The notes under the pieces were generated by a model that worked only from the letters and a program-made list of their open reading frames with translations, was not told the DNA's origin and made no database searches. Below are positions 59,516 to 63,390 of a stretch of DNA of 64,000 bases, piece by piece. This stretch comes from Oxalobacteraceae bacterium (GTDB lineage Bacteria; Pseudomonadota; Gammaproteobacteria; Burkholderiales; Burkholderiaceae_D). The stretch's first letter is position 1. Every line of letters starts with the position of its first letter. The position numbers and the translations under genes are program-made. The stretch spans positions 1-64,000 of the forward strand of contig JAJTGD010000004.1 of the NCBI GenBank assembly GCA_021299035.1, in the 5' to 3' direction.

Positions 59516-60754
59516 ATGACAACCGAATCTGACGATGCGCGCTCAGCGCTCCGGATTGCCATCGCCGGTGCCTTGTCGTTGGCAGTCGCTATGGGTATCG
59601 GTCGTTTCGCGTTTACGCCGCTGATGCCGATCATGCTGCAGGAAGGGCTGCTCGATATTGCAGCAGCAAGTTGGCTAGCGAGTGCCAACTACCTTGGCTA
59701 TTTGGTGGGCGCACTTCTATGCACGTTTCAACCAGCCCTGTGGGCGCGCTGGTCCTGGCCCACACTGCCTTCATCCACCATGGTGAAAGTCGGACTCACG
59801 CTGACCTGCGCGCTCACCGCTGCGATGGCCATCGATATCACCGCGGCCTGGCCTGGGCTACGTTTTATCACCGGCATCACGACCGCGATCGGCTTTGTGT
59901 ACACCTCGACCTGGTGCCTTGCGCACCTGGCGCGTCTGCATCGTCCCACTGCCGGTGGCATTGTGTATATGGGTCCAGGTATTGGCATCGCCTGTAGCGG
60001 TCTATTGGCCAGTGTGATGGTGCAAGTGGCCTGGCCTGCCAGCTGGGGTTGGATTGCGTTCGGAGTGCTGGCGCTGATCATCACTGTGCTGGTATGGCCG
60101 GTGTTTCGTCACGATGACGGCTTGCAGAAAACAAGTGTGGCGCATGCGGTGACCGACTCCGGCGGTACACAGACCGAGAAGGCTACGCTGGTGATTGCCT
60201 ACGGATTAGCTGGCTTTGGTTACATCATCACAGCGACTTTTTTACCCGTGATGGCGCGTGCGGCACTGCCTGGTTCGGTTTGGTTGGATCTGTTTTGGCC
60301 ATTGCTCGGCATTGCTGTCGCCTGTGGCGCTTTGCTGGCCTCGCGCATTCCCGCGCGAATCGATCAGCGTCGCCTTTTATTGGGCTGCTACCTGATGCAG
60401 TCACTCGGCGTAGTGATCGTAAACTGGGTACCCACACTGACCGGCTTTGCCATCGGTAGCGTGCTGGTCGGTCTGCCATTCACCGCGATCACCTTTTTTG
60501 CGATGCAGTTAGGCAGACAATTACATCCACAATCGGCGCCCGCCATCATCGGCTTGCTATCAGGCGCATTTGCATTCGGCCAGATCATCGGTCCACCGGT
60601 TGCTGCTGCCATGCTGGCGCGCGCGTCGAATCATGCAACCGGCTTTGCCTGGGCCATTGATGTAGCCGCGATCTCGCTGTTGCTCGGCGCAGGTCTGTAC
60701 GGCTGGATGATCAAGCGGTTTAGCGCCGTATCAACAACGCCAGCGACCAAGTAG
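59516..60754 (+). CDS. YbfB/YjiJ family MFS transporter
   Basis: A 412-residue membrane protein with 12 hydrophobic segments. AMGIGRFAFTPLMPIMLQEG at the N-terminus and WLASANYLGYLVGAL are the hallmark of the YbfB/YjiJ group. LHRPTAGGIVYMGPGIGIAC forms the helix 5 region. The substrate is unknown. The last codons include a 16-bp block shared with the structured element downstream. Confidence 0.9.
   Translation: MTTESDDARSALRIAIAGALSLAVAMGIGRFAFTPLMPIMLQEGLLDIAAASWLASANYLGYLVGALLCTFQPALWARWSWPTLPSSTMVKVGLTLTCALTAAMAIDITAAWPGLRFITGITTAIGFVYTSTWCLAHLARLHRPTAGGIVYMGPGIGIACSGLLASVMVQVAWPASWGWIAFGVLALIITVLVWPVFRHDDGLQKTSVAHAVTDSGGTQTEKATLVIAYGLAGFGYIITATFLPVMARAALPGSVWLDLFWPLLGIAVACGALLASRIPARIDQRRLLLGCYLMQSLGVVIVNWVPTLTGFAIGSVLVGLPFTAITFFAMQLGRQLHPQSAPAIIGLLSGAFAFGQIIGPPVAAAMLARASNHATGFAWAIDVAAISLLLGAGLYGWMIKRFSAVSTTPATK
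60732..60747 (-). repeat. Partial copy of the 65-nt element inside the MFS gene end
   Basis: On minus, GTCGCTGGCGTTGTTG is identical to the 5' end of the element copy at 63253-63268. It overlaps the last codons of the MFS gene. Confidence 0.5.
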
Positions 60755-60781
60755 CCCACCTCAAGCCTTCACCACAAGGTA

Positions 60782-60846
60782 GCTGGCTAGACGGGGATGT
60801 CGAAGACAGTACATGACGTGCGGCGAGACATCACCAACAACGCCAG
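60782..60846 (-). repeat. 65-nt structured intergenic element, copy 1
   Basis: Read on minus, it aligns without gaps to 63256-63320 on plus. Outer arms CTGGC and GCCAG; central stem GGTGATGTC and GACATCCCC (60827-60835 and 60793-60801, 8 of 9 pairs). The loops GTTGTT, TGTACTGTCT and GTCTA are shared with copy 2. The stem is extended by CACCACA/TGTGGTG (60770-60776 and 60853-60859). It begins 7 bases after the motB stop, between the convergent MFS and motB genes. Confidence 0.8.
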
Positions 60847-60866
60847 GAACGATGTGGTGAGGGCGT

Positions 60867-61883
60867 TTATTTTTCGAGGGGTGGATCGTTGTACAGCACC
60901 GTAATGCTGATTCGACGGTTACGCGGATCAGCAGGGTTCTGCGGGTTGAATGGCGCCGTATCTGCCACACCTTCAATGCGAACAATACGGCCACCCCCAA
61001 TACCACCGGTTTCCAACATGCGCCGTGTTGCCTCGGCACGCTCGATCGACAAAGACCAGTTGGTGCGCTCACTACCCTCGGGGAAGGGTGAACTATCGGT
61101 GTGCCCCTTAACCGCGAGCTTATTCGGCATGTTCGCCAATGAGCGCGTGACTTCATTAATCAGTGCTCGCGCGCGTGGATCCATCGCCGCATTACCACTA
61201 CCGAACATCGAGAAATTCGCCTTATCGATGATGTCGATTCGCAGACCCGTTTTTTCTCGCGTGAACTGCACCTGATTTTTCAGATCCGCCAGTGTTCTAC
61301 TCAGTGAGAGGTTTTCGGTGATCTCTTGCTCCAGCTTGTCGAGTTTTTCTCGCTCGGCTTGCTCGGCAATTTTCTGCTTCTCTTCTTCGCTCAGGTTCTT
61401 GCCGTACTTAGGATTCGGTTTGTCATCCGGTGACGTACCCGCATCCTCGCCCTTGCCACCCTCGGCACGCGGGGTCACGCGCTCGATCAACGCCTGCTGT
61501 TTGGGATCCATGGGTAGGGTTTCGGGGTCGATGATAGAGCGACCACCAAACATACCGTTCGAGCCCGCTGTCTCACCGGCGCCAGAGACCTTCAACTCAG
61601 TCGGTTGGAAGTATTCTGCAATACCGATACGCTGCTCCTCGGGGGTCGCACCCAGCAGCCACATCAGCAAAAAGAACGCCATCATGGCGGTCATCATGTC
61701 GGCCAGCGCAATTTTCCATGCACCGCCATGGGCACCTGCGTGCCCTTCCTCTTCAATCTTTTTCCAGATAACCGGCGGTTTCGGCTCCTCCGCCGGCTCG
61801 GCTGGCGAGGCGTCAGGCGCAGCTTCGCCCTCGGCAGCTGCGGCAGCGGCTTCGTCTTCTGGTTTCTTCTCTTCTTCTGCCAT
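60867..61883 (-). CDS. motB: MotB-like flagellar motor stator protein
   Basis: A 338-residue protein starting MAEEEKKPEDE. A long acidic/Ala-Pro N-terminus precedes one membrane helix (WKIALADMMTAMMAFFLLMW) with the proton-binding Asp62. A linker with charged repeats follows, then an OmpA-like domain with NKLAVKGHTDSSPF and RNRRISITVLY that anchors to peptidoglycan. An ATG 21 bases upstream is possible. No motA or other flagellar gene is in this window. An N-terminal acidic extension of this kind is seen in some betaproteobacterial MotB. Confidence 0.88.
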   Translation of the reverse strand: MAEEEKKPEDEAAAAAAEGEAAPDASPAEPAEEPKPPVIWKKIEEEGHAGAHGGAWKIALADMMTAMMAFFLLMWLLGATPEEQRIGIAEYFQPTELKVSGAGETAGSNGMFGGRSIIDPETLPMDPKQQALIERVTPRAEGGKGEDAGTSPDDKPNPKYGKNLSEEEKQKIAEQAEREKLDKLEQEITENLSLSRTLADLKNQVQFTREKTGLRIDIIDKANFSMFGSGNAAMDPRARALINEVTRSLANMPNKLAVKGHTDSSPFPEGSERTNWSLSIERAEATRRMLETGGIGGGRIVRIEGVADTAPFNPQNPADPRNRRISITVLYNDPPLEK

Positions 61884-62305
61884 GGTCGGATTTGGGGTGA
61901 GCAAGGCCGCGCTTGCGCGGCAAACGCCTTATGAATCGACAGCAGTGGCTCAGGCTGCAGTCTTGATTGGGGAAATATAAATGAATCAGCCAGCTACGTC
62001 GATGAACTCCTGATAACTTTAGGAACAAAGATAATGTTTTGAAAACTATTTAAATCGGTCCGACAAAATGCCGCGGGCACGTTTAATGCACTAGCTAAAT
62101 TGGTCGTGTCGGTTGGCAGACAGCAGCCGATCTAACAGGGCGGTTCGCCCTAGAGATTCGCCTTAGGCGTTCGCTGTAGTCGTGCGATGAGATGGTATCG
62201 GAGCAGCAGTCGACGCATTTGAGTGCTAGTGCAGTGATGTCGATTGAGTGTTGCTTGCTTCGCAGTTCAGGTTTAATTTCTTCATTCAGCGAGGAGGGAC
62301 CGAGC
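61884..62305. other. Divergent non-coding gap upstream of motB
   Basis: This 422-bp gap separates motB (minus) from an unrecognised gene (plus). GCCGCGC/GCGCGGC (61906-61912 and 61915-61921) gives a tight GC hairpin in the motB leader about 22 bases before its start. No gene was recognised and no sigma-28 promoter was convincing. Confidence 0.5.
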
Positions 62306-62734
62306 ATGGATTTTCAACCGTATATTCGCGCCAGTTGGGAAATCGTGATGGAATGCGAGAGCCGCAGCCGTGTCAATCTTGATGAAGAACTAGAAGCTTA
62401 TCTGGTCTACATGGTTGCGCGAAATTTTCGCAACCCTGATTTTCCGCCTGATGTGATCTGCCTCGAGTTCACCAAAGCCCGTACACGCGATGACTTTCGA
62501 CAGATCGGCGATAGCTGCTTAATCGTCGATGCTTGGGATGTACGACGCGCTCGACTCACCAGCCAAGATTATTATGAAAAGCTGGGTCAAGCTGCCTATG
62601 CCTACGCAGCGATGACATCCCGACCGATTGACACCTTGTTTCAACGAATCGCGCGTGAGTTTTCATGTCTTTCAAAAGTGCTGGCGGGCGTCAAGCCGCA
62701 GCTTGATGCAGTACGACCGTACAGCTCGCACTAA
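62306..62734 (+). CDS. Unrecognised conserved-looking cytoplasmic protein
   Basis: A 142-residue soluble protein starting MDFQPYIRASWEIVMECESR. An ATG further upstream (62192) is in frame, but GAGGAGG fits only the ATG at 62306. The chain is mainly helical (EELEAYLVYMVARNFRNPDF, YYEKLGQAAYAYAAMTSRPI, TLFQRIAREFSCLSKVL). No signal peptide, membrane segment or catalytic motif is visible. It is divergent from motB. I do not recognise the family. Confidence 0.75.
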   Translation: MDFQPYIRASWEIVMECESRSRVNLDEELEAYLVYMVARNFRNPDFPPDVICLEFTKARTRDDFRQIGDSCLIVDAWDVRRARLTSQDYYEKLGQAAYAYAAMTSRPIDTLFQRIAREFSCLSKVLAGVKPQLDAVRPYSSH

Positions 62735-62812
62735 CGGGGACCGGGTGGTACGCGCGCTGAGGCAAGATTCGGCGCACGCTACAATATCGGCTTTTATTAA
62801 GCGACTATCACC

Positions 62813-63232
62813 ATGAAATACCTGCACACCATGGTTCGCGTCAGCGACCTCGACGCCTCTGTCAAGTTCTACCGCGATGCACTGGGTCTTGAAGTCTTGC
62901 GAGCGCAAGAATATCCTGGCGGGCGATTCACACTGGTTTATCTCGCCGCACCGGGTGATGAAGAAGCGCAAGTCGAACTGACTTACAACTGGGATCCGGA
63001 AGAACTCGGTGGCGCGCGTAATTTTGGCCACCTTGCCTACGCAGTCGATGATGTATACGCGCTGTGCGAGCGACTTCAGTCACACGGCGTCACTATCTTG
63101 CGCCCACCCCGCGATGGCCGCATGGCATTTGTTCGATCGCCCGACAATATCTCGATCGAGTTATTGCAAAGAGGGCAGCCACTGCCGCCGGCCGAGCCTT
63201 GGGTTTCTATGCCCAACACCGGCACCTGGTAA
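62813..63232 (+). CDS. gloA: Glyoxalase I-like VOC protein
   Basis: A 139-residue vicinal oxygen chelate protein. Metal ligands fit His5 (YLHTMVRVSD), Glu in AQVELTYNWD, His in NFGHLAYAVDD and Glu in ISIELLQRG, as in lactoylglutathione lyase. SVKFYRDALGLEVLRAQEYP and AFVRSPDNISIELL are strong glyoxalase I features. It would turn the methylglyoxal-glutathione adduct into lactoylglutathione. The last residues, EPWVSMPNTGTW, match betaproteobacterial GloA tails. Confidence 0.9.
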   Translation: MKYLHTMVRVSDLDASVKFYRDALGLEVLRAQEYPGGRFTLVYLAAPGDEEAQVELTYNWDPEELGGARNFGHLAYAVDDVYALCERLQSHGVTILRPPRDGRMAFVRSPDNISIELLQRGQPLPPAEPWVSMPNTGTW

Positions 63233-63255
63233 CTACACTCTCATTCAAAATGTCG

Positions 63256-63320
63256 CTGGCGTTGTTGGCGGCAACTTGCCGTACGTCGTGTACTGTCTGC
63301 GTTGCCGCCGTCTAGCCAGC
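63256..63320 (+). repeat. 65-nt structured intergenic element, copy 2
   Basis: Outer stem CGCTGGC/GCCAGCG (63254-63260 and 63315-63321), central stem GGCGGCAAC/GTTGCCGCC (63267-63275 and 63301-63309, 9 perfect pairs) and an inner GTAC/GTAC (63281-63284 and 63290-63293). It begins 21 bases after the gloA-like stop, between convergent genes. A further hairpin, GCATCAA/TTGATGC (63325-63331 and 63335-63341), and T-rich sequence follow, so the whole block may end transcription. Confidence 0.8.
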
Positions 63321-63369
63321 GCTCGCATCAACTTTTGATGCTCATTTTGATTGATAGTCTTTTTGTTTT

Positions 63370-63390
63370 TTCAAAATGTCGCTGGCGTTG
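63370..63390 (+). repeat. 21-bp direct repeat of the element's 5' end
   Basis: Bases 63370-63390 are identical to 63244-63264, 126 bp away. The repeat covers seven bases of leader and GTCGCTGGCGTTG from the element. It lies just before the end of the aldehyde dehydrogenase gene. Confidence 0.7.

Follow-up and report, generated by a model that had tools for sequence, protein, structure and literature searches.

Judged from sequence comparison, the two structured repeats that lie behind convergent genes in the window (the whole 64,000-nt stretch of Oxalobacteraceae DNA analysed here) are copies of a mobile element that carries no gene. We consider it probable that they belong to a Correia-type superfamily of miniature inverted-repeat transposable elements (MITEs), moved by IS5-family transposases and standing as sense hairpins right past stop codons, on the 3' ends of mRNAs. 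The preliminary description had presented a free-standing 65-nt element of no described family, and neither point is supported: comparison of an empty with a filled site places the 65 nt in the inner part of a longer mobile element, and their core agrees with that of the Neisseria Correia element.

Two copies in the window and their relatives

The features in question are the following.

60732..60747, minus: 16-nt end fragment of a further copy, near copy 1 (100% match to query 11-26, E 0.2)
60765..60864, minus: copy 1, full predicted hairpin, arms and core (RNA fold of 60758-60872 minus, z -4.05)
60782..60846, minus: copy 1 core (65-nt alignment; model match 60773-60858, 82.7 bits)
60867..60869, minus: stop codon TAA of ORF 60867-61904, upstream of copy 1 (ORF list)
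63230..63232, plus: stop codon TAA of ORF 62813-63232, upstream of copy 2 (ORF list)
63237..63358, plus: copy 2, full predicted hairpin, a three-way junction with a side hairpin (RNA fold of 63230-63360, z -6.55)
63256..63320, plus: copy 2 core (65-nt alignment; model match 63244-63329 minus, 87 bits)
63325..63341, plus: copy 2 side hairpin GCATCAACTTTTGATGC (RNA fold; terminator-like scan)
63370..63390, plus: 21-nt end fragment of a further copy, near copy 2 (100% match to query 3-23, E 3.8e-4)

The ungapped 65-nt match between the two cores was recovered on realignment, with 14 differences, and so were the four compensated pairs reported for it, which are inner-stem pairs 16/50, 17/49, 18/48 and 19/47, changed on both sides and paired in both copies; at pair 14/52 both sides have also changed, with pairing in one copy only. 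Both copies fold strongly. The full hairpins measure 100-122 nt each and begin 2 nt (copy 1) and 4 nt (copy 2) past the stops of frames that we take to be MotB-like (ORF 60867-61904) and glyoxalase-like (ORF 62813-63232), so that the earlier remark placing each copy a little after a stop codon was correct and understated; as also remarked, both sites lie between convergent frames in the ORF list. Read on the strand opposite to that used earlier, a copy consists of a left arm, CTGGC, a TAGGC internal loop and a 9-bp inner stem, then the apical loop GCAGACA-GTAC-n5-GTAC-GGCAA between the inner-stem strands, and then the inner stem again, an AACAAC internal loop, GCCAG and the right arm. At the site of the 16-nt fragment, the congener G009 has a whole second unit.

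With copy 2 as blastn query, its own genome returned 38 matches, 25 of them with E below 1e-4, copy 1 being found at E 5e-9, and a covariance model (R1) built from 23 own-genome copies found 29 copies there at E<=0.001. Over the 23 copies the covariation score was 0.373 against 0.164 in shuffles, a value reached by 0 of 500, and the signal was lost when partners were slid (<=0.140); 84.8% of cells were paired (72.9% in shuffles) and 89 were changed on both sides (32.9 in shuffles). Of the reading offered at the outset, the conserved loops, the covarying stems and the sense position after stop codons are supported. In this genome the arms lengthen the stem, often as an A run facing a T run, and vary between loci. 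The preliminary description had set its reading, beforehand, against an absence of further copies or a scatter of random changes in them; since many further copies with paired changes were found, in this genome and in relatives, neither outcome was seen.

Matches to R1 occurred in 27 of the 56 genomes searched (own included) and in 18 of the 21 of the genus, within which the number of copies per genome runs from 0 to 61. In five congeners, 82 loci (84 sources minus the two weakest, L058 and L059, with one best copy per locus) were grouped by flank similarity into 40 positions, at least 23 of which are common to at least two genomes; L318 and L320, both at the ends of contigs of the same genome, are possibly one site. 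Shared positions can hold another subtype, with quite different arms. The site of copy 2, behind ORF 62813-63232, is occupied by a whole element in G016 and G005 and by a shortened one in G009 and G001, and none was seen by eye in seven more distant species; the site of copy 1, behind ORF 60867-61904, holds a whole element in G016, a tandem in G009 and none in G001. Because most positions are shared or decayed among congeners, movement would seem to be rare now.

In 56 orthologue comparisons, which exclude pairs under 78% identity and are not independent of each other, there were 43 double changes, 37 of them still pairing, against 11.6 expected by independence, besides 174 single changes, and arms changed about as fast as loops (8.9% and 8.4%). 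Either selection for pairing or palindrome correction could account for this, as could the two together. Template-switch correction of palindromes would also leave hairpin arms complementary, and the paired changes are therefore no proof by themselves of selection on an RNA fold.

Rfam at the gathering cut-off returned one tRNA only over the window and no family for the element, and among five loci searched at E<=1 a single hit overlapped an element (MIR7510, scoring 34.1 bits where the cut-off is 93). A terminator scan found 9 matches in the stretch against 5.0 in shuffles; the sole match inside a copy was the side hairpin of copy 2, and copy 1 had none. Side hairpins can be read in the same arm at L341 and in copies L442 and L444-L446 of genome G131, and since arms of the G131 type have no T run, a terminator role would not be general.

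Mobility and position at stop codons

The evidence for movement comes from the site L051, where the close relative G016 is empty and reads ATTTAGATAT-TAAAAAG, and the window's own genome is filled and reads ATTTA-element-TTAGAT-TAAAAAG, the element ending in GAGGTTCTAA and TTAGAGCCTC. The flank is 95% identical between the two genomes, G016 having two extra bases (AT), and TTA stands on both sides of the filled site in this one empty/filled pair; it contains TA and is one base longer than the TA of Correia elements. We read this difference as an insertion in the window's genome with duplication of TTA, a precise loss in G016 being the less likely alternative. Further movement is suggested by sites L304/L295, where a second element lies between the stop codon and what is left of an older element, and by L147 (Neisseriaceae JH1-16) and L120, L172 and L184 (Neisseria), where one element sits inside the apical loop of another. 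Elements also form 26 tandem arrays, intergenic and with little spacer, whose units are mostly 92-108 nt apart, or about one element length, and in 24 of the 26 (the exceptions being L049 and L294) the best score belongs to the unit nearest the stop codon. Neighbouring units resemble each other more than do other pairs from the same genome (mean identity 0.78 in 32 pairs against 0.65 in 1514 pairs), so local duplication contributes to the arrays, and such neighbours differ mainly in one arm. In arrays such as L285, L301, L305 and L332, the units distant from the stop retain the left arm and core, and their right arm is often unpaired.

Taking long open frames, and not annotation, as genes, we found that in 72 of the 82 congener loci a sense upstream gene has its stop at -5 to +13 nt relative to the start of the model, and in 50 at exactly 7 or 8 nt; in the remainder the stop lay farther away (four) or there was no such gene (six). 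The own genome alone shows this abutment in 19 of 22 loci. At the 61 loci with distances of +5 to +11, the stop is TAA in 39, TAG in 16 and TGA in 6, preceded by C or T in 53. The same end and orientation recur in eight other genomes of the order, where a stop falls 17-19 nt from the core model in 32 of 52 loci (two of which, L424 and L425, lie within a duplicated stretch), while stops on the left side are scattered, with 5 of 52 at 31-38 nt, about the length of the left arm. Of the 85 matches listed for named genera, 11 lie at a distance of exactly 38 nt, none of these in Neisseria, and the Neisseria copies examined here do not abut stop codons; nor do any of the eight copies in G443, which belongs to another order and has other ends.

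Site density in the window gives a measure of chance: 12 stops contain a YTAR site, compared with 33 further non-coding YTAR sites within 100 nt downstream, and for TA the counts are 35 against 143, so that abutment would be expected in 20-27% of cases, and in half that for one named end, far below the frequency observed. Since both ends carry the same repeat, recognition of ends would not by itself explain why one of them is preferred; the preference calls either for selection acting on the sense transcript or for insertion that is itself asymmetric. The placement in one orientation right after the stop suggests that the element may shape mRNA ends, and we infer a possible function as mRNA 3'-end hairpin, RNase III substrate or terminator.

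The Correia core across genera and the candidate mobilisers

A scan of named genomes for the loop pattern gave at least 80 loci, with matches in Neisseria (including N. gonorrhoeae), Aquitalea, Chromobacterium, Vogesella, Cupriavidus, Acidovorax, Janthinobacterium, Methylotenera and others, and core and arms were present also in Avibacterium, Regiella and a Streptococcus (L140, L143, L146); L171 and L177 have the pattern without such surroundings and are possibly chance matches. In an alignment of 58 cross-genus cores (57 distinct) the covariation score was 0.461 against 0.119 in shuffles, reached by 0 of 500, with slid partners at <=0.079; by one of five covariation measures, the number of double-change pairs, the alignment was not above shuffles (13 against 12.2, 188/500). 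The search pattern partly sets the loop letters in this alignment, and AAGGCG, CAAC and the stems are not so set; beyond the fixed letters, too, the loops are nearly invariant across genera. A core model (R2), with 17 candidates per genome scored in one survey and 19 in the other, matched 106 of the 300 genomes surveyed in the order, representing 59 of 139 genera, and 33 of the 276 surveyed in the class, representing 28 of 216 genera, some few of them belonging to the order. No match to the element was found in the phage collection, and the plasmid collection gave matches in 3 and 9 records; of these H1 is unannotated, and the annotated H6 and H7 offer no clean stop-codon case, the element lying 272 nt behind a gene in H6 and overlapping a gene end by 20 nt on its other side in H7.

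Several observations stand beside this distribution. Prophage-like IMG/VR contigs of Neisseria type hold Correia-type copies (L221, L224, L226, L230, L231, L237). Copies L110, L134, L141, L188 and similar ones, from Accumulibacter, Nitrosomonadales and Methylophilaceae, have the same apical loop inside ATTCC...GGAAT arms, a pattern that looks as if different transposable ends carry one core. Finally, the GC-rich L085 (1501-1601) has the same AAGGCG and CAACGCCG flanks with a longer apical hairpin (GGAACGTACTTGAAGTACGTGAGG), and is perhaps nearer to BRE.

The link to Correia elements (CREE/NEMIS) is most direct in the N. gonorrhoeae copy L128, which reads TATAGTGGATTAAATTTAAATCAGGACAAGGCG... 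and carries variants of the inverted repeat together with the core ends TCAGGACAA and CCGGTACGG quoted for Correia elements in the text of PMC2649163, and in a Cupriavidus element that matches two gonococcal records directly (85% over 52 nt, at 21 and 22 places). The likeness covers the core sequence (the loop, AAGGCG and CAACGCCG), the inner fold, complementary arms, a length of about 100-120 nt, intergenic position, a target that contains TA in the one empty/filled pair, and nested insertions. On the other hand, the outer core ends TCAGGACAA and CCGGTACGG are absent from the own-genome copies, the 26-bp repeat TATAGTGGATTAA... does not form the inverted ends here, these being TARAGCC/GAGCC-like in this genus and TATAGTGG in Neisseria loci, the hosts here are not Neisseria, and the copies seen in Neisseria lack the one-orientation stop abutment. 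As the element would work in the manner of a Correia element and has its core in common with it, and as the defining end repeat is lacking, we file the family, by its sequence, as a relative of the Correia element and not as the Correia element proper. In the relevant text of PMC2649163, the 26-bp repeat was in 2009 reported only from Neisseria and the means of Correia mobilisation was given as undetermined. A search at the level of titles and abstract openings in open-licence PMC articles found no such elements outside Neisseria or at stop codons, except the Beta-proteobacterial repeat element BRE (Hot et al. 2011, PMC3110155). BRE is described there as an intergenic repeat of about 90 bp, suspected of mobility, that occurs in Betaproteobacteria including Comamonadaceae and forms tandem arrays whose units have hardly any spacer or none; compared by description only, this family and the BRE known from Bordetella and Comamonadaceae may be one and the same.

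Candidate mobilisers were met in two other genomes. Neisseriaceae JH1-16 (G058) has an 864-bp IS5-family element with PF13340 and PF01609 frames and GAGCCGCTAACAAAACC at both ends, and the ends of its short element L147 are identical to these; in Cupriavidus pampae (G061) the IS5-type ends GAGAC[CT]GTTTCAAAAAG resemble those of the short element L136, GAGACCGTTTAAGAATG. On this end similarity we infer a link to IS5 transposases, the short elements differing in having no transposase gene and the core being no part of the insertion sequence, to judge by that of L371. Three IS5-type copies have their ends set: in Cupriavidus the copy supplies the end of the TAG with which a 924-nt frame stops, in JH1-16 one copy stands behind an 825-nt frame that ends in TAA (a longer frame there stops 26 nt earlier), and the other JH1-16 copy has no such frame. 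We also noticed by eye that the Correia end TATAGTGGATTAACAAAAACC (L128) and the IS5-type end TTAGAGCCGCTAACAAAACC (L371) have TAACAAAA...CC in common at nearly the same distance from the tip, a likeness that possibly hints at what mobilises Correia elements.

Searches for PF01609 and PF13340 gave no match in the genome of the window, nor in G005, G006, G009, G013, G016, G020, G024 and G055, all carriers, and the carriers G062 and G063 (Chitinimonas and Aquitalea genomes) gave no PF13340 match, so for this genome the mobiliser is a presumed one. Since this genome is available as a draft of 80 contigs, 95% complete, an insertion sequence may have been missed. A PF01609/PF13340 mobiliser from the genus itself was rejected: only G001 was positive among the genus genomes tested, and its IS5 remnants lack matching ends. 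An integron attC site was set aside on comparison by eye with the attC consensus.

Competing explanations and meaning

Under the explanation that we think probable, the ends of the arms (GAGCC...CAAAA type) would be recognised by IS5-family transposases acting in trans, insertion would occur into TTA/YTAR sites, among which stop codons would be well tolerated, and the copies that persist would mostly be those forming a hairpin in the sense transcript directly past a stop. There the hairpin would affect the 3' end of the mRNA by serving as an RNase III substrate, like the Correia transcripts of Neisseria, and perhaps also block 3' exonucleases or end transcription from both sides of convergent genes. 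Available text of PMC2649163 and PMC10969869 ascribes promoter, IHF and RNase III roles to CREE in Neisseria, with RNase III binding and cleaving the copies there, and that of PMC10969869 has ERIC copies at gene 3' ends changing transcript levels. A possible reading, which we hold tentatively, is that we are dealing with a portable RNA domain for 3' ends: the core hairpin would have been carried on varied transposable ends (TATAGTGG; GAGCC/GAGACC; ATTCC...GGAAT in L110, L134 and L141), put at stops in sense, and kept because its conserved loops are acted on by a host factor, be it RNase III, the terminating ribosome or RNA polymerase. That the element is instead a structured RNA kept by the host, or a specialised 3'-UTR terminator, with mobility old or incidental, would agree with the fixed orientation and stop distance, the A run facing a T run in the arms, the structure retained at 23 shared positions and the want of a transposase in the own genome; we nonetheless find it unlikely, given the empty site with TTA on both sides, the nested copies, the swing from 0 to 61 copies in one genus, the different subtypes at one site and the ends in common with insertion sequences.

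The paired changes might, as another account has it, come from template-switch correction during replication, with no host function and with the stop bias an insertion preference. Arms that change as fast as loops, the excess of double changes over independence and the adjoining tandem units that differ mainly in one arm all speak for it, whereas the near-invariance of the loops across genera goes against it, as does the repeat common to both ends, with which insertion alone leaves the stop-facing end unexplained; we regard it as very unlikely. Most implausible of all is the idea of a REP-type repeat that owes its movement to a Y1 (RAYT) transposase. ERIC and REP are likewise small intergenic hairpin repeats, and a single PF01797 (Y1_Tnp) gene is present in 6 of the 21 genus genomes (G000, the window's own, G001, G005, G009, G012 and G016), among them the five whose R1 scores exceed 100 bits. 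Against this, none of the 12 stretches around Y1 genes, taken from nine genomes, held a copy of the family (best match E 0.49; 0 of 12 below E 0.4), and PF01797 had no match in G006, G013 and G020, congeners with high copy numbers. Y1 transposases carry an HxH motif, and the own-genome protein (L097 2940-3644, G000:C41) has RVH at the expected place; its gene, preceded by a frame that is presumably ssb-like, may be a domesticated or dead transposase. Nor does a duplicated TTA agree with movement by such an enzyme.

The same core in many genera, together with IS5-like ends in two genomes, provides a testable candidate for the mobiliser. The family is common and had no Rfam entry in the searches made. 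Its position at stop codons in a fixed orientation raises the question of whether such repeats serve as ready-made mRNA 3' ends, and, should the reading as a portable domain prove true, Correia elements would represent just one branch, that of Neisseria, within a broader system for rewriting the 3' ends of mRNAs.
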